A stretch of 51,990 nucleotides of DNA. Origin: a virus. The notes beneath the pieces are model-generated. The model did not search any database, was not told the origin of the DNA, and worked only from the letters and a program-made list of their open reading frames with translations. Position numbers and translations under genes: made by a program. Location: the IMG/VR virus record IMGVR_UViG_3300028569_002318, positions 1-51,990 of that record, one strand, 5' to 3'. Below, piece by piece: positions 32,488 to 51,761 of this stretch (positions are counted from its first letter, which is position 1; every line of letters starts with the position of its first letter).

Positions 32488-32536
32488 TCTCCTATATTGT
32501 TAATTAAATGATATCACTATTATTTAAACTTGTCAA
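32488..32536 (-). promoter_or_regulatory. Sigma-70-type promoter and Shine-Dalgarno site for DUF736-like gene
   Basis: Minus strand: TTGACA (32531-32536), 17-base spacer, TATCAT (32508-32513), then a 26-base leader with AGGAGA (32488-32493) 6 bases before the ATG. Unlike the other promoters here, it has room for a leader. The -35 and -10 lie within the 3' end of the sigma-factor gene. Confidence 0.75.
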
Positions 32537-33103
32537 CTTATTTTTTATAAATCTTTTGCCTTTGTTATGCAAATTAATAGCGGTCTGAGTACTTATGCCT
32601 AATATTTTGCCGATTTTATTCCAAGCCATATGCTTAGAGTCATTAAAGTATCTTAATTTAAAAATCCTTAATATTCTTTCATCTTTTGTTCTTTCTAATA
32701 AAGAAAAGATAAAATCTGATTTTTCTTTTATTAAAGATTCAGAATAATCATTTTTTTTCTGATTTTTTTCAACTATATTTTTTATAGCGTCGTTTTCCAT
32801 GGCTAACAATGGCCCTTTTTTATTCAAACAATTTAAGCAGTGATATCTCATTTGGTTGCCTAACCAAGTAGAAAATTTTACATTTTTTTCTGGATTATAA
32901 TTTAGTACTGATCGATATATTACCATTAATTTATCTGAAGCTATGTCTTCGGGGTCAATACCAGAATTGACCATGTTTTGGTAATATCTTTTAATCATTT
33001 GATGACATATACCGCTATGTCTAGCTTCTAATTCTTTTAAAGCAACACTATCATTTTTATTTTTAATGTTATTTATTAGATCTATGTCTTCTGTATAATT
33101 CAT
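32504..33103 (-). CDS. Sigma-70-family RNA polymerase sigma factor (phage type)
   Basis: A 199-residue protein. Region 2 is visible as MVIYRSVLNYNPEKNVKFSTWLGNQMRYHCLNCLNK (about residues 60-95), the -10-binding helix of sigma factors. Region 4 is KIGKILGISTQTAINLHNKGKRFIKNK (about 165-190), a helix-turn-helix. There is no room for region 1 or the full region 3. It resembles the small sigma factors used by T4-like phages for late transcription (gp55 type), although it is not closely similar. It is encoded in an overlapping arrangement with dNMP kinase (35 bases). It is the natural candidate for recognising the GTGTAATA elements found at structural genes. Confidence 0.85.
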   Translation of the reverse strand: MNYTEDIDLINNIKNKNDSVALKELEARHSGICHQMIKRYYQNMVNSGIDPEDIASDKLMVIYRSVLNYNPEKNVKFSTWLGNQMRYHCLNCLNKKGPLLAMENDAIKNIVEKNQKKNDYSESLIKEKSDFIFSLLERTKDERILRIFKLRYFNDSKHMAWNKIGKILGISTQTAINLHNKGKRFIKNKLTSLNNSDII

Positions 33104-36543: not shown

Positions 36544-37656
36544 ATGTTTAAAAAAGCTATTGGATATGACGATATTTCTCTTTTACCAAATTTTTCAGAC
36601 ATTTACTCAAGAAAAGAAGTAGACATATCTACAAAAATTTCTAGAAATAATAAGATTAAGATCCCCATAGTACTATCTCCGATGGATACTGTTTCATCTG
36701 TTAAATCATGTATTAAAATAAATAAAATTGGTGGAGCGGGAGTACTTCATCGCTTCATGTCTATTGAGGACCAAAAATTAAAATCAAAAATAATTAAGGA
36801 TCAAAGTGGATTTTCAATAAATGCAATTGGATTAAAAGACTCAGAAGAAAGAATTCGAGCCACGAATACATATACAGACATTTATTTTCTTGATACAGCT
36901 AATGGTTTATCTAAAAACGTAGAAGACTTTCTTAGATGGTATAAAACTGCTGGGTTTTCTCAAGATATAATTGTTGGTAATACATTAACTAAAGAAAGCG
37001 TTTATAGGTTAGCCAATTTAAAAGCAGACGGTTTTAGACATCTTATTGGGCCAGGCTCGATGTGCTTAACCCAAGTAAAAACTGGAATTGGTTGTCCAAG
37101 TGTGACTGGTAATTATTATGCATGGAAAGCCGTTAGAAATTGGGAGTTATCTCAAATTGATCTCTTTAAACAAGACAAACCAAACCCACAGCATAGACCA
37201 AGTGTTCTAGCTGATGGCGGTATTCGCTACCCAAAAGATTTGGTAAAAGCTATTGCTAGCGGATGTGATGCGGTTATATGCGGAAGGATTTTTGCAGGAT
37301 TAGAAGACACAGTAGACGATGAAGATATTGTAGAAAAAGATGGTAAAAATTATGCCAAATATAGAGGTATGGCATCTAAGGATGTTGTGGAGGATTACGA
37401 ACTCTACGATGGAACGAAAAAAAATCTTTTTGTCGAAGGAGACAATACGCTAATTCCTCTATCAAATAGGACGATAGAAGATATTGTTTATGATTTTGCA
37501 AATGGCTTAAGAAGTGCAATGAGCTATTTAGGGTTTAGAACTATAGACCAAATGCGAGGCGGCATATGGAATGACACGATTAAAGTAGTACAGGTTTCTT
37601 CTAATAATATGTACGAGGGATTTTCTCACGGTAAAAACGCAGTTGACAATTTATGA
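36544..37656 (+). CDS. IMP dehydrogenase / GMP reductase family enzyme, CBS-less
   Basis: A 370-residue TIM-barrel protein. Its start YDDISLLPNFSDI matches the family. The catalytic loop is HLIGPGSMCLTQVKTGIGCP (Cys near residue 174). ADGGIRYPKDLVKAIASGCDAVICGRIFAG holds phosphate-binding residues, and the flap reads YRGMASKDVVEDYE. There is no CBS pair. IMPDH makes XMP for GMP synthesis; GMPR turns GMP back to IMP. The flap and C-terminus do not let me decide between them, since both families lack or keep CBS domains. The nearby adenylosuccinate synthetase makes an IMP-supplying (GMPR) role attractive. Length is close to GMPR (about 345) but also to CBS-less IMPDH. Confidence 0.85.
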   Translation: MFKKAIGYDDISLLPNFSDIYSRKEVDISTKISRNNKIKIPIVLSPMDTVSSVKSCIKINKIGGAGVLHRFMSIEDQKLKSKIIKDQSGFSINAIGLKDSEERIRATNTYTDIYFLDTANGLSKNVEDFLRWYKTAGFSQDIIVGNTLTKESVYRLANLKADGFRHLIGPGSMCLTQVKTGIGCPSVTGNYYAWKAVRNWELSQIDLFKQDKPNPQHRPSVLADGGIRYPKDLVKAIASGCDAVICGRIFAGLEDTVDDEDIVEKDGKNYAKYRGMASKDVVEDYELYDGTKKNLFVEGDNTLIPLSNRTIEDIVYDFANGLRSAMSYLGFRTIDQMRGGIWNDTIKVVQVSSNNMYEGFSHGKNAVDNL

Positions 37657-38985: not shown

Positions 38986-39996
38986 ATGTCTTTAAATTAT
39001 GTAGATATTATTTTTGGGCTCCAATGGGGGGACGAAGGCAAAGGTAAAATTAGTAACGCTATATCCAAAGACTATGATATGGTATGTAGATGGAATGGTG
39101 GTCCAAATGCTGGGCATACAGTATACATAAATGAAAAAAAATATAAAACTCATATTATTCCTTGTGGAGTTTTTCAAAATAAATTAAGCATTATTGGCCC
39201 CAATTGTGTTATAAATATAGATAAATTTTATGACGAAATAGATTATTTAAAAAAAGAAGGATTTAATACCTCATTAATTAAAGTTAGTCCAAAAGCACAT
39301 ATTATTACAGACAGACATTTAATCTACGATAAGACACATTTAAAAGAGATATTTGGAACTACTGGACAAGGAATTGCACCAGCTTATTCTGATAAAATGT
39401 TAAGAGTTGGTAAACTAGCGAAAGATTATATTGATAAACAATATATTTGGGACGGCAATTTGTATGGAAAAATTCTATGCGAAGGAGCTCAAAGTTTTTG
39501 GTTAGATGTTAATTATGGAAATTATCCCTACGTAACAAGTAGCGAGACATTGCCATATAGTGCTTGCTCTTTAGGTTTTAGTCCTAAAAAAATAAGAGAT
39601 ATAATTGGAGTAGCAAAAATTTATGATACAAAAAGTGGAGTAGACCCACTGTTTCCAATATCATTATGGGATGATAAAGAGTTAGAAGAGATTATCAATG
39701 TAGGAAGTGAATATGGATCTACAACTGGTAGGAAAAGATTAGCGAATTGGTTAAGATTAGAACACCTTATTCAAGCAATAAAAATATCTGGAACAAATAA
39801 ATTAATAATTAATAAGTGCGATGTTTTAGAAAAAGTTGGTAAATTTAAAATTATATTAGACAACACAACAATTCATCAAAGAGATTTAAATTTCGATTCC
39901 TTAAATGCCATGAAAGATTTCATAAGAAACTACATCTATCAAGAAACCCAAGATTTTTCAGAAATAATATTTTCTGGCGATAAAAGTAAAATTTAA
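38986..39996 (+). CDS. purA: Adenylosuccinate synthetase, short form
   Basis: A 336-residue P-loop enzyme that joins IMP and aspartate in the first committed step to AMP. It has GLQWGDEGKGK (11-21; catalytic Asp16), GGPNAGHT (38-45; His44), FGTTGQGIAPAYSDK (about 123-137) and TTGRKRLANWLRLE. Length is that of archaeal-type PurA (about 335-340) rather than the 430 of E. coli. Viral PurZ homologues that make 2-aminoadenine have lost the catalytic Asp (GSTGKG-type motif), whereas this one keeps it, so normal PurA activity is more likely. The C-terminal STGPDR-like motif is changed to SGDKSK. Follows the IMPDH/GMPR gene by a short operon. Confidence 0.9.
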   Translation: MSLNYVDIIFGLQWGDEGKGKISNAISKDYDMVCRWNGGPNAGHTVYINEKKYKTHIIPCGVFQNKLSIIGPNCVINIDKFYDEIDYLKKEGFNTSLIKVSPKAHIITDRHLIYDKTHLKEIFGTTGQGIAPAYSDKMLRVGKLAKDYIDKQYIWDGNLYGKILCEGAQSFWLDVNYGNYPYVTSSETLPYSACSLGFSPKKIRDIIGVAKIYDTKSGVDPLFPISLWDDKELEEIINVGSEYGSTTGRKRLANWLRLEHLIQAIKISGTNKLIINKCDVLEKVGKFKIILDNTTIHQRDLNFDSLNAMKDFIRNYIYQETQDFSEIIFSGDKSKI

Positions 39997-40003
39997 TTTA
40001 TTT

Positions 40004-40924
40004 TTAAAGACTGTTAGGGCTATATGCGTAGACATAATTTACGTCTTGCATTGCACCGTCAACAAAACGATAAGGGTAGTCAGCCCATCGAGTAGGAGGG
40101 TAAAAACTTTTCCAGCCTCCGCATGAATAACGTATGCCTCTTTTACCATATTCTGGAAGCCAATCCCAATCAGTACACCCCGAAGACCGAGGGAATCCTG
40201 GAATACTTCCAACAGGAGAAGACGGCGCATTAGGTTTGTTACAGTCTGGATGACAAGGATGGCCTACCCTTGGATTTGGGGTACACGGAGGTACGTAGGA
40301 ATAGCACTCTACGGGATTTTTTATACCAGAGTAATAATTTACTGAATTAATTGTCCACCCAAGCGATATTTTAGGTCTTGAAAAATTAATATTGCGATCA
40401 CGAAATTTAAATGCAGGAGCCCAACCTGATATTGTTGAATTATCAGTGTGGTGATTGTTCTGAAAACGAACATATTCTCTAGTTCCACTGCGAGTAGTAT
40501 ACATTGTACCGTCATCATAAACAAATTGGCCGTTTTCTACACGATATGGCCCAAGACCTTGTGTGCATTTAAATATTGCATACGCACAACCCCCTTTTCT
40601 CCACCATCCTATTATTGATGGAGCGCGTCCTTTTAATCCATTTGGATGTTTGCAGTCCGCGTAAATGCGACTAGGTCCACTAGTCATACTATTACCAAAA
40701 TCCCACATCCATGCATTTTGACATTTTTGGCATTTATATGCCCATTTATAGCAACCAGGACATTTAGTGGGTTCTGGGTATATTCTTCGTGGATTCCTAA
40801 AATTATCTAATTCCATTTCATAAGATACCCCAGCGAGACAAGTTAACGGTTTGTTATTAGTGTCTACAATAGTTTTCCATCCTGGAATATTTTGACAAAT
40901 ACAAGGTTTAGGTTTTTTAGCCAT
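40004..40924 (-). CDS. Cysteine-rich protein, unknown (306 aa)
   Basis: A 306-residue protein with many cysteines arranged in pairs (CPGCYKWAYKCQKC near residue 54) and further ones in CTPNPRVGHPCHPDC. It is rich in Trp, Tyr, Gly and Pro. There is no signal peptide. It looks like a zinc-binding or disulfide-rich extracellular or virion protein, but no family is recognised. It faces the gene at 40973 divergently, and both are preceded by GTGTAATA. The style resembles the proteins at 40973, 50974 and 51771, which may form a related group. Confidence 0.7.
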   Translation of the reverse strand: MAKKPKPCICQNIPGWKTIVDTNNKPLTCLAGVSYEMELDNFRNPRRIYPEPTKCPGCYKWAYKCQKCQNAWMWDFGNSMTSGPSRIYADCKHPNGLKGRAPSIIGWWRKGGCAYAIFKCTQGLGPYRVENGQFVYDDGTMYTTRSGTREYVRFQNNHHTDNSTISGWAPAFKFRDRNINFSRPKISLGWTINSVNYYSGIKNPVECYSYVPPCTPNPRVGHPCHPDCNKPNAPSSPVGSIPGFPRSSGCTDWDWLPEYGKRGIRYSCGGWKSFYPPTRWADYPYRFVDGAMQDVNYVYAYSPNSL

Positions 40925-40972: not shown

Positions 40973-41419
40973 ATGCGACCTATATCACCTCAACCTGACA
41001 CAACTAAATGCCAACGTTCTACAGTTGTAGATAGGTTTAATCGTACTTTGAGATGTGACAAACACCAAAGTATAGTTCCTGATGTTCTTATACAACCAAA
41101 TTCAAAATGTGTTCCATTTATGAGTTATAGATGCGAAAATTGCGGATGCTATCTCTGCACACAAGGTTGGTATCTTTGTAAAAAAGGAGGAGGTGCTTAT
41201 ATCGTAGGATGGAATATAATTGGATCATGCGCTATTGCACAAATAAGTAGGCCTGGTACTGGTAGAAGCAGTTGTTATGGCACAGATGCTATCCCACCAA
41301 TGGGCTATTCTGTGCCAGGTTGTAGACGATTTGGTAAAATTTTGAGTTATTCAAAGCCTACGCCTAAAAATATTATTTGTTTTGATCTGAAAAAAATTCA
41401 GACATCAGACGAACAATAA
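40973..41419 (+). CDS. Cysteine-rich protein, unknown (148 aa)
   Basis: A 148-residue protein with about twelve cysteines, including CENCGCYLC (about residues 53-61), GWYLCKKGGGAYIVGWN and SRPGTGRSSCYGTD. The CENCG...C pattern suggests zinc-binding or disulfide knuckles. It has no signal peptide. It shares the divergent promoter region with the 306-residue cysteine-rich gene. No known family recognised; a structural or tail-associated role is inferred from context. Confidence 0.7.
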   Translation: MRPISPQPDTTKCQRSTVVDRFNRTLRCDKHQSIVPDVLIQPNSKCVPFMSYRCENCGCYLCTQGWYLCKKGGGAYIVGWNIIGSCAIAQISRPGTGRSSCYGTDAIPPMGYSVPGCRRFGKILSYSKPTPKNIICFDLKKIQTSDEQ

Positions 41420-41425
41420 CTTCTA

Positions 41426-41887
41426 TTATATAAAATAAACTTCTAAATGAGTTTCTTTATCTACCACAGAAAAGTTTTGAAACTGCAAGCTTGATCTTAT
41501 CTTTGTAACAAACTCTAACCAAGCTTCATCACTTTTTTCTACTTTATAAATTTTTCCAGGAGAGGCAAACTCTAAAGATACATTTTGTTTTTTAAAAGTT
41601 TCTTCCTCTATTATGAATTTCCAATTTTCATTTATTTCTTCTCTGAGTTTTTTAGCATTATCTGAGTCTATTAAACCCTTTAAAAAGGTTTCATCTTCTT
41701 TTATATTTAATCTAGTTGTTAAATAATTAGTCACTCTTTGCTTGCATTCGCAATTTGGGTTGTCTCTAGAGCTTAATAAATCAATTTCTAATTCTGGATA
41801 TTTCTTTTTAATTTCATTAAAAATTGTATCGTCTCGGAGGATAACATCGTAATATCTTGGTATATATGGGATTTCTTCTATGTTCAT
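41426..41887 (-). CDS. Hypothetical protein (153 aa)
   Basis: A 153-residue protein, helical in the middle (KKLREEINENWKFIIEEETFKKQNV) with a terminal beta pair, and CECKQRVTNYLTTR near residue 47. It lies between the two presumed late genes on the opposite strand. No family recognised. Confidence 0.7.
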   Translation of the reverse strand: MNIEEIPYIPRYYDVILRDDTIFNEIKKKYPELEIDLLSSRDNPNCECKQRVTNYLTTRLNIKEDETFLKGLIDSDNAKKLREEINENWKFIIEEETFKKQNVSLEFASPGKIYKVEKSDEAWLEFVTKIRSSLQFQNFSVVDKETHLEVYFI

Positions 41888-41937
41888 ATTAGTATATTAT
41901 ATATCTATTTTTTATAATTTCTATTTTTTTTCTATTT

Positions 41938-41945
41938 GTGTAAAA
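41938..41945 (+). promoter_or_regulatory. GTGTAAAA element before the intron region
   Basis: GTGTAAAA preceded by a T-rich run. If used, transcription would begin almost at the intron's 5' end, so the real start may be further upstream (a TATAAT lies at 41913-41918). Confidence 0.35.
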
Positions 41946-42331
41946 TATGGTGGCCTTATTGGGTGAATTCGGTGAAAGTCCTATAAATAAAAAATAGTTC
42001 TTTGAAATATATAGGATAACGCCGAGCCAAGCTTGAACTGCGACAGACATGGTTCAAGAAGGTGTAGAGACTAACTCTTGAGCTATCGCAGCAATAAAAG
42101 AGACACGAGCGCCCAAGGTTGCTTTTAGAAAAGCAGCTAAGACATAGTCCGATCTTAATGGTAACATTAAGTCTTAAAATTAAAAATTTAAGAAAAACAT
42201 TATGATAATAAGTACAATTGCAAATCGCTACGCGTGGCAATCACAATAAAAGTCAGATTCTAGTACGGAAGCGACTCACTTCTTTTATATGTTGAAAGAC
42301 CATCCATCGCAAGATGAAGATAAGCAAAAGG
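41944..42331 (+). ncRNA. Group I intron in the leader of the 564-aa gene
   Basis: The catalytic core is present. P4 pairs 41968-41974 (UUCGGUG) with 42020-42026 (CGCCGAG). P5 pairs UCCUAUA at 41979-41985 with UAUAGGA at 42010-42016. P6 pairs CUUGAAC at 42032-42038 with GUUCAAG at 42052-42058. P7 pairs GACUA at 42069-42073 with UAGUC at 42145-42149. Sequence motifs include GCCGAGCCAAGC (Q), GUAGAGACUAAC (R) and AAGACAUAGUCC (S). A GUAA tetraloop hairpin (42154-42171) follows, as P9 does. There is no reading frame for a homing endonuclease. P3 and the exact splice sites are not certain; ends are given within about 15 bases. It lies before the ATG at 42342, in the 5' leader. Confidence 0.87.
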
Positions 42332-42341
42332 CTAAACTAAT

Positions 42342-44036
42342 ATGAATTTATACAATAAAACTAGAGCTGGATTAGATCCAAGTATATCTGCAGGAGACTT
42401 AAGAAAAATTCTTGCTGTAAACAAGAAGACCTTTAAAACATTCTCTAAAGATTATCTCACTAGCGAAGAAGCGCTTTTTTATAAAAGTGGTTTTTATACC
42501 CCAAAAAGCGAGTCTATTTCTAAAAGAGAAAATGATCAAAAATTTGGAGAAGATTATAGAGAGTCAAATTATAATGGTTTTTGGAAAGAATCTGGATGGA
42601 TTCCAATTGAAAAAACTATACAAAATCCAAAAAAACTTTATTTAGATAAACCAAGACCTTTTTGCCCAAGAAATAATCTTCCATATACAGTAGTAGATGA
42701 TCCAAGCAATTTAAACCCTTGGCTCGTTTCAGGAGCAGCGCAAACACGAGACCCATCTAGAGCTTCAACAGGAGTATATGTTGATTTGAAATGGTCTGGA
42801 TATCAAATAGAATATGATAACGAAAAATATTGCGTAGCTGGACTTCTTAGAAAAGCAATTTATAATAACCAAACTATCGATCCAAATAGAGGCATTGTAC
42901 CATATAGAAATTATTTTGAAATTTTTGAACATAGTGGAAATCAAAAATTTGATATAGGCAATCATAAATTTTATTTAGAGTCAGGGTATAAACATGGCCA
43001 AGTTATTGGTTATAATCAAATATTTTTTCAATCTGGATTAAATCCTTCTGGATTTATAAATTATAATTTCTTGGCTCTTCCAAACAGAAGAATTACTCGT
43101 TGGGATAAAAGATTAGGCAGGGCTGCTAAAAGCTACATTGGCTCTACACCCAATTATCCTAGCATAACAGAACCAAGAAACATTGTCAGATATCATATAT
43201 TCTTTTTTACAGGAGAATTACCAGTTGTTTATTTAACTGGCGGAGCTAATTTAACAAAAAGAGGCTTTGGTTTTGGTTCAGTATATGAGCATAACAATCC
43301 TAAATATAAATTATCCGTAAATAATAACTATAGAATGGTATTTACTGGCATATATGCAGAGTCTGCCACCAAAGAACTATCTATTTTTAATACAGGTAAT
43401 ATAACAGAAAGATTTTACGTAGGTATTAATAATCCAAATATCATTTCTATACAACAAAATAGAATACCAGGAATTCCTAATCATGGAGTTTGGTCTAATG
43501 AGGGACAAAGTGGCCATCAATACGGTGAAATAATTGAAAAAGTTTATAAAATTGGAAGAGAATCTAATATCAATTTTAAAATTAAAATTAATACCAAAGG
43601 ATTAACCCCAAACGCCTTGAACACGGCTCATATTAATATATATAGAATTACTGGTACAGTTAGACCTTTCACAGATGAATTTCCAGCCACATTAGTTAAA
43701 GTCGGTCGTTTTACCGATTATGGCAACGGAGTTAAAAATTTAGCTTACCAATCTCAAAAGTATACAATACCTATCGATATATATCCTAAAACCAATGATT
43801 CTCGAATAATCAGCGATGGAAATCTTTATCAAAATTTACAAAGCGGTGATTATAAACCAATTTTTAAAGTTGGACAAGTAATTGATATAAACCCAAACAA
43901 TAAAAATCATTTTAATTTAAATAGCTCAATGGGATTAACTTTTTACAGTAATGGGACAAATTTAAAAGATTTAAGTGTAAGTTTAGATACAAGAGGAAAA
44001 ATTAAAAGAAAAGGTATAGAAGACGGTCAGGTTTAA
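42342..44036 (+). CDS. Virion-associated protein, unknown (564 aa)
   Basis: A 564-residue protein with no signal peptide. The first 150 residues are charged and mixed (MNLYNKTRAGLDPSISAGDLRKIL, then DKPRPFCPRNNLPYTVVDDPSN); the rest is strand-rich with many Gly, Asn, Ser and Tyr residues (GYKHGQVIGYNQIFFQSGLNPSGF; YRITGTVRPFTDEF). It is 2 bases ahead of the 2312-residue repeat protein, and the context suggests a structural or tail-tip role. It follows the group I intron. The AUG is the first in frame after the in-frame stop at 42333. Confidence 0.72.
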   Translation: MNLYNKTRAGLDPSISAGDLRKILAVNKKTFKTFSKDYLTSEEALFYKSGFYTPKSESISKRENDQKFGEDYRESNYNGFWKESGWIPIEKTIQNPKKLYLDKPRPFCPRNNLPYTVVDDPSNLNPWLVSGAAQTRDPSRASTGVYVDLKWSGYQIEYDNEKYCVAGLLRKAIYNNQTIDPNRGIVPYRNYFEIFEHSGNQKFDIGNHKFYLESGYKHGQVIGYNQIFFQSGLNPSGFINYNFLALPNRRITRWDKRLGRAAKSYIGSTPNYPSITEPRNIVRYHIFFFTGELPVVYLTGGANLTKRGFGFGSVYEHNNPKYKLSVNNNYRMVFTGIYAESATKELSIFNTGNITERFYVGINNPNIISIQQNRIPGIPNHGVWSNEGQSGHQYGEIIEKVYKIGRESNINFKIKINTKGLTPNALNTAHINIYRITGTVRPFTDEFPATLVKVGRFTDYGNGVKNLAYQSQKYTIPIDIYPKTNDSRIISDGNLYQNLQSGDYKPIFKVGQVIDINPNNKNHFNLNSSMGLTFYSNGTNLKDLSVSLDTRGKIKRKGIEDGQV

Positions 44037-51513: not shown

Positions 51514-51761
51514 TATGCCTCCGGCATTATATCAATAATCAATCTGTCGCAATGAATATACTGCTTTATAGAATTATCTTGATTAACGCATTCTTTCTCT
51601 TCTTGATAAAATATAACTGACAAATTAGCGTAAGTTTCACTATCCATTATAAGAAAAGCTAAATCACACTCTGCCTCTTCTTTTTCAAAATTTATATTAT
51701 TACAAAAGTCCACATATATTATATGGCTTTTAAAGAACTTTATATATAAAAAGTGTAACAT
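51513..51761 (-). CDS. Hypothetical protein (82 aa)
   Basis: An 82-residue acidic protein (FEKEEAECDLAFLIMDSETYANLSVIFYQEEKECVNQDN). It overlaps the cysteine-rich gene by 1 base, and its 5' end overlaps the GTGTAACA element of the diverging gene. Beta-rich; no family recognised. Confidence 0.6.
   Translation of the reverse strand: MLHFLYIKFFKSHIIYVDFCNNINFEKEEAECDLAFLIMDSETYANLSVIFYQEEKECVNQDNSIKQYIHCDRLIIDIMPEA
51753..51760 (+). promoter_or_regulatory. GTGTAACA late-type element
   Basis: GTGTAACA after an A-run, 10 bases before the ATG at 51771. It differs from the consensus only at position 7. Confidence 0.45.

Follow-up and report, generated by a model that had tools for sequence, protein, structure and literature searches.

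The 51,990-nt stretch of viral DNA analysed here, IMG/VR record IMGVR_UViG_3300028569_002318 (hereafter the window), carries one copy of a group I RNA between a convergent minus-strand open reading frame (ORF, 41426-41887) and the plus-strand ORF 42342-44036. A preliminary description had placed an endonuclease-free group I intron at 41944-42331, in the leader of a virion gene, and expected its splicing to leave a shorter leader. Our analysis confirmed the region, the group I identity and the position in a leader, 5' of ORF 42342-44036 and not within a gene, but moved the limits of the RNA to ~41951 and ~42334 and found its splice-site-like sequences in permuted order. The features are as follows.

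41938-41945 (+): promoter-like motif GTGTAAAA, from which transcription would begin at the internal guide sequence (IGS) or immediately ahead of it
41951-41956 (+): IGS, or guide, UGGCCU, 5' strand of a permuted P1; its wobble G is 41952, 7 nt 5' of P3
41959-41965 (+): 5' strand of P3, UUGGGUG, partner 42110-42116
41970-41974 / 42020-42024 (+): P4, enclosing P5
41978-41984 / 42011-42017 (+): P5, inside P4
41996-42006 (+): boxA-like motif AGTTCTTTGAA in the P5 loop, by resemblance a putative NusB/NusE antitermination site
42032-42038 / 42052-42058 (+): P6
42039-42043 with 42086-42090 (+): L6/L7.1 pseudoknot, P6 loop UGCGA
42069-42073 / 42145-42149 (+): P7, guanosine-binding helix, in the RF00028 match
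42075-42079 / 42098-42102 (+): P7.1
42110-42116 (+): 3' strand of P3
42118-42126 / 42129-42137 (+): P8
42154-42171 (+): P9 hairpin with a GUAA loop
42172-42193 (+): P9.1 hairpin, its pairing kept and its sequence widely divergent in ~25 relatives
42194-42204 (+): 3' splice-site-like sequence AAAACAUUAUG, terminal G at 42204
42205-42333 (+): 'exon' between the reversed splice sites, a predicted 129-nt circular RNA
42329-42334 (+): 5' splice-site-like sequence AGGCUA, 3' strand of the permuted P1, with a putative cut between U42333 and A42334
42342-44036 (+): ORF downstream of the RNA (564 aa), probably a virion (tail) protein, no Pfam match

The group I core and its relatives

In a sensitive Rfam scan of a 551-base sequence, the full RF00028 model matched 41921-42171 on the plus strand with 74.5 bits (cut-off 50, E 4e-19). 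P3 to P9 and the P/Q/R/S elements are all present, and the P7 helix is invariant in 14 sequences. With a core above the family cut-off and a conserved guanosine-binding helix, the RNA belongs to the group I ribozymes, and its catalytic core is real. Indeed, the fold energy of 41944-42200 lies far under that of dinucleotide shuffles (z -4.1, 0/200), and covariation among 14 relatives was detected in P3, P4, P6, P8, P9 and the L6/L7.1 pseudoknot, with 81 two-sided changed cells in the core versus 26.6 in shuffles and 0-3 in slid structures. The segment 41921-41958, which Rfam assigned to P1/P2, holds no real P1. No plus-strand ORF of at least 40 aa starts in 41888-42341, consistent with the preliminary claim that no endonuclease frame is present; two minus-strand ORFs in this interval (53 and 94 aa) were set aside as mechanical. 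RF00028 went unreported when the whole window was scanned with the fast filters of Rfam, so routine annotation would overlook the element. Most relatives' loci were likewise lost in a later Rfam scan, and ribozyme leaders such as this one can escape detection when long sequences are scanned with Rfam in the standard way.

About 30 related phage leaders have the same layout, and the exact motif GAAGGTGTAGAGACTA is frequent in viral contigs. The syntenic relative L099 carries an IMPDH-like gene, a PurA-like gene, the RNA and then a homolog of ORF 42342; PurA-based and RNA-based searches supplied more relatives. ORF 42342 on its own retrieved no relatives in a whole-protein search, BLASTN against a phage collection gave chance matches only, and none emerged when bacterial and archaeal genomes were scanned with a pattern. 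A covariance model built on the core (R1) gave 199-248 bits for the window and its closest relatives and mostly 112-127 for a second subgroup, compared with mostly less than about 108 for other group I introns of the same scan. A tRNA-Tyr intron (L077) reached 121 bits, and the R1 score alone therefore cannot define the family. Three similar but ambiguous loci were left out of the counts: L014, with a possible upstream P1 also, and L111 and L212, with the site inside the P9.1 loop. Throughout, the element lies between genes, ahead of start codons, and no intron-free copy of the leader was found. Some records carry several copies (two each in G008, G009 and G037, four in G046).

The association with virion genes was also examined by protein searches blind to the RNA. 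Two downstream virion proteins retrieved 15 and 11 loci, and the RNA lies upstream in 24 of the 26; the two loci without it are the weakest partial protein matches. Many of these loci were already known through the RNA searches, but three (L223, L226 and L230) were new and also carry the RNA upstream. Moreover, distant homologs of the ORF 42342 protein are preceded by the same RNA.

The guide, its downstream partner and the promoter-like motif

The guide UGGCCU pairs with AGGCUA at 42329-42334, ~280 nt downstream and past the core; this site lies 8 nt ahead of the ATG, and the pair at the putative cut is a U.G wobble. The guide stands directly 5' of P3, and P2 is absent. The distance from the wobble G to P3 is exactly 7 nt throughout the close family and in a minority of the other group I introns of the same scan, most of which have a P2 hairpin and A-rich joints in this interval. 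In the 100 nt upstream of 16 members, no partner for the guide was found, with at most two Watson-Crick pairs next to a U. A first P1 candidate, GCCU/GGGU (41953-41964), was rejected, since GGGU belongs to P3. Hence the preliminary view of an intron excised to join two halves of the leader does not hold, as both a 5' exon and a conventional P1 are absent and the partner lies downstream of the core.

Relatives change the guide and the site together (guide/site: L099 GGUCC/GGACU, L128 GGGC/GCCU, L148 GCCC/GGGU, L176 GCCUU/AAGGU, L206 GUCC/GGAU, L208 GACC/GGUU and L218 GCCA/UGGU). The five pairs of the permuted P1 are 98.6% paired in 14 sequences and in 98.4% of cells in 25. Among the 25, there are 16 two-sided changes versus 2.4 in shuffles, seen at four of the five pairs, and the third pair varies among GC, AU, CG and UA, while the wobble at the putative cut is G.U in 24. 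The covariation score is 0.456 against 0.114 when shuffled (0/500) and 0.013-0.100 in slid controls. As the sites had been picked for complementarity, a blind test was run, using 16 members whose start codon is nearby. In 15 of them, the 30 nt ahead of the ATG contained the exact complement of the member's own guide, versus 11 of 96 for foreign guides, and none of 20,000 permutations (mean 4.2, maximum 13) reached 15. L205 was matched by a neighbouring GACU, the site taken being GGCU, so 14 of 16 is the safer count, which still exceeds the permutation maximum.

At the other end, the hexamer GTGTAA ends 8 nt before the wobble G of the window's guide. It stands just ahead of the RNA in ~30 leaders, and nearly all relatives share this position. 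Of 484 ORF starts from the window and the clade loci, 49 have GTGTAA in the preceding 45 nt, compared with 5 of 484 internal windows and a mean of 5.9 for permuted hexamers. This enrichment suggests that it is probably the promoter of those genes. Leaders following GTGTAA at late genes of the clade are very short (7-20 nt).

Proposed back-splicing and its alternatives

After P9.1, relatives keep the sequence (G)AUAACAnnnnUG at the 3' splice-site position, as do canonical IA introns of the same scan, and the T4 td intron has the same kind of 3' end. An earlier placement of the 3' splice site at G42344, in the ATG, was abandoned because relatives have the site after P9.1. Judged by sequence consensus, this terminal-G site is what a conventional intron would have. 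The 5' splice site, however, lies 3' of the 3' splice site and is paired with the guide, no upstream 5' exon pairs with the guide, and no otherwise intact gene is interrupted. Lacking a 5' exon, the RNA is not a conventional intron. The order of guide, core, 3' splice site, 'exon' and 5' splice site instead predicts back-splicing. This architecture is well supported, and we consider it quite probable that the RNA is a late-expressed group I ribozyme with permuted splice sites, which makes a circle and trims the mRNA.

The chemistry is proposed by analogy with permuted intron-exon constructs. Transcription from GTGTAA would begin at the guide, leaving no 5' exon. The core would fold from P3 to P9.1 with a normal 3' splice site left after G42204, and the guide would pair with AGGCUA, so that both ends of the RNA together form P1. 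Cleavage between U42333 and A42334 by a bound guanosine or GTP would then release an mRNA with a 9-nt leader before the AUG (G plus AAACUAAU). Attack on the 3' splice site by the freed 3'-OH of the U would join the ends of 42205-42333 as a 129-nt circle with the junction GGCU-AUAAUAAG and free the ribozyme. The shorter leader expected earlier is thus still predicted, but by permuted cleavage at this site together with circularisation. The phage might benefit from a late mRNA trimmed until nearly leaderless, like those of its other late genes, from the circle itself, or from both. Differences in the exons between subgroups suggest that selection may act on the cut rather than on the circle; retention of the 3' splice site points the other way, towards the circle.

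Several points weigh against this proposal. The downstream sites were first chosen by eye for complementarity, so that the blind test alone is free of bias. P10, the pairing of an extended guide with the start of the exon, was sought and was not consistent. The exons, with predicted lengths of 60-192 nt in relatives, are poorly conserved across subgroups and mostly fold little better than shuffles, leaving a function for the circle itself unsupported. In L162, the cut pair is C-G in place of U.G, and both L162 and the L148-L150 group have a second GTGTAA ahead of the ORF, so the ribozyme would not be needed there to start the mRNA.

Searches of the exons for tRNA or tmRNA found none; among Rfam families, none appeared in the window's exon in the short scan and none was convincing in relatives' loci. 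The predicted circles of L214 and L230, from different phages, share two near-identical blocks of 22 and 26 nt, which indicates that some exons at least are conserved RNAs. As a post hoc observation, exons of the short-exon subgroup resemble a single hairpin bringing both splice sites together.

Among the alternatives, single-step leader processing, in which guanosine or hydrolysis would cut just before the start codon with no ligation or circle, is unlikely but the best placed. In most members the cut precedes the start codon by just a few nucleotides, and both the short leaders of clade late genes and the poor exon conservation fit it. Such processing would not need the 3' splice-site-like sequence, yet the family keeps it after P9.1, and the separate promoter motif for the ORF in L162 and the L148-L150 group also speaks against it. 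We think it very unlikely that the RNA is instead a former group I intron acting as a non-catalytic switch, in which guide/leader pairing would sense guanosine or boxA-bound Nus factors. The pairing adjoins the translation start, a boxA-like motif occurs in nearly every member, and regulatory leader group I RNAs are known, such as the c-di-GMP-II riboswitch/group I intron of Clostridioides difficile. However, the full catalytic core, with its invariant P7, and the strictly kept U.G of the putative cut are conserved, and pairing alone would need none of these.

A conventional intron with its 5' exon further upstream or on another RNA, spliced in cis or in trans, has very little probability. The core and the 3' splice site are canonical, but the guide has no upstream partner and covaries with the downstream one, plus-strand gene space is ended at 41888-41937 by the convergent minus-strand ORF, and the promoter-like GTGTAA stands directly ahead of the guide in most relatives. 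Least probable of all is a lariat-capping (GIR1-like) ribozyme, which would cut downstream and cap the mRNA with a 2'-5' branch: it would share the location in the leader of one mRNA, the 3' cut and a group I-like core, but the normal P1-type U.G wobble and the td-like 3' splice site are retained here, and no P15-type rearrangement was noticed, although no systematic P15 search was made.

Known systems and neighbouring genes

The window RNA shares P3-P9.1, the P7 guanosine site, the td-like 3' splice site and the U.G wobble with phage and bacterial group IA introns (RF00028; T4 td, Twort and SPO1 type). Unlike these introns, it lacks a 5' exon, P2 and an endonuclease, has its 5' splice site downstream of its 3' splice site, and lies in leaders or between genes. 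Natural back-splicing by a group I intron was first reported for the corallimorpharian mitochondrial intron ND5-717 (PMC6545197), the sole natural permuted group I case that we found in the literature searched. Both RNAs have a permuted exon order, with back-splicing via an exon circle predicted here. In ND5-717, the order stems from the circular mitochondrial genome and the ND5 exons are joined (PMC6545197), whereas the window RNA is compact and has no gene to restore. A Tetrahymena intron engineered in the same topology, with the antisense upstream and the target downstream of the ribozyme, circularises RNA (PMC10415121). Such permuted intron-exon systems are man-made counterparts of the layout that is natural and conserved here. 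A natural permuted family also exists for group II introns (PMC8637638), rearranged self-splicing RNAs that form circles outside genes; their fold is unrelated to that of the window RNA. No phage example of a permuted group I RNA appeared in the literature searched, which excluded preprints and most subscription journals.

On balance, the relatives may well constitute a phage-wide family of natural permuted group I ribozymes, generating circular RNAs and trimming late-transcript leaders, in which virion gene expression would involve the circle or the newly formed 5' end of the mRNA. If they work as predicted, phages evolved, in RNAs of ~340-450 nt, the arrangement that engineers use to make circular RNA. 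They would then represent a first natural family of back-splicing group I ribozymes that is both compact and multi-copy, with group I catalysis serving a purpose besides intron removal. Testable consequences would be deliberate production of circular RNA by phages and control of late genes by a ribozyme cut beside the start codon.

The boxA-like AGTTCTTTRAA occurs in nearly every member, either in the P5 loop or ~15 nt after the promoter motif, before the guide, and apparently never in both. It suggests antitermination of a long late transcript, whose next ORF would encode 2312 aa. A second boxA-like motif at 51729-51739 (-), upstream of ORF 51513-50974(-), has no ribozyme match. In L162 (reverse complement), an intrinsic terminator-like hairpin as well as the second GTGTAA lies between the RNA and the ORF, so that the RNA resembles a separate transcription unit. 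In the window, GTGTAATA lies 6-12 nt ahead of the ATG of each of two divergent virion-type ORFs, 40004-40924(-) and 40973-41419(+), which would give nearly leaderless late mRNAs. A phage sigma factor with a Sigma70_r2 domain is encoded at 32504-33103 (-) and is a candidate reader of GTGTAA. In addition, 36544-37656 encodes an IMPDH/GMP reductase-like protein and 38986-39996 a short PurA-like protein (336 aa, WGDEGKGK), pointing to phage-encoded purine metabolism.
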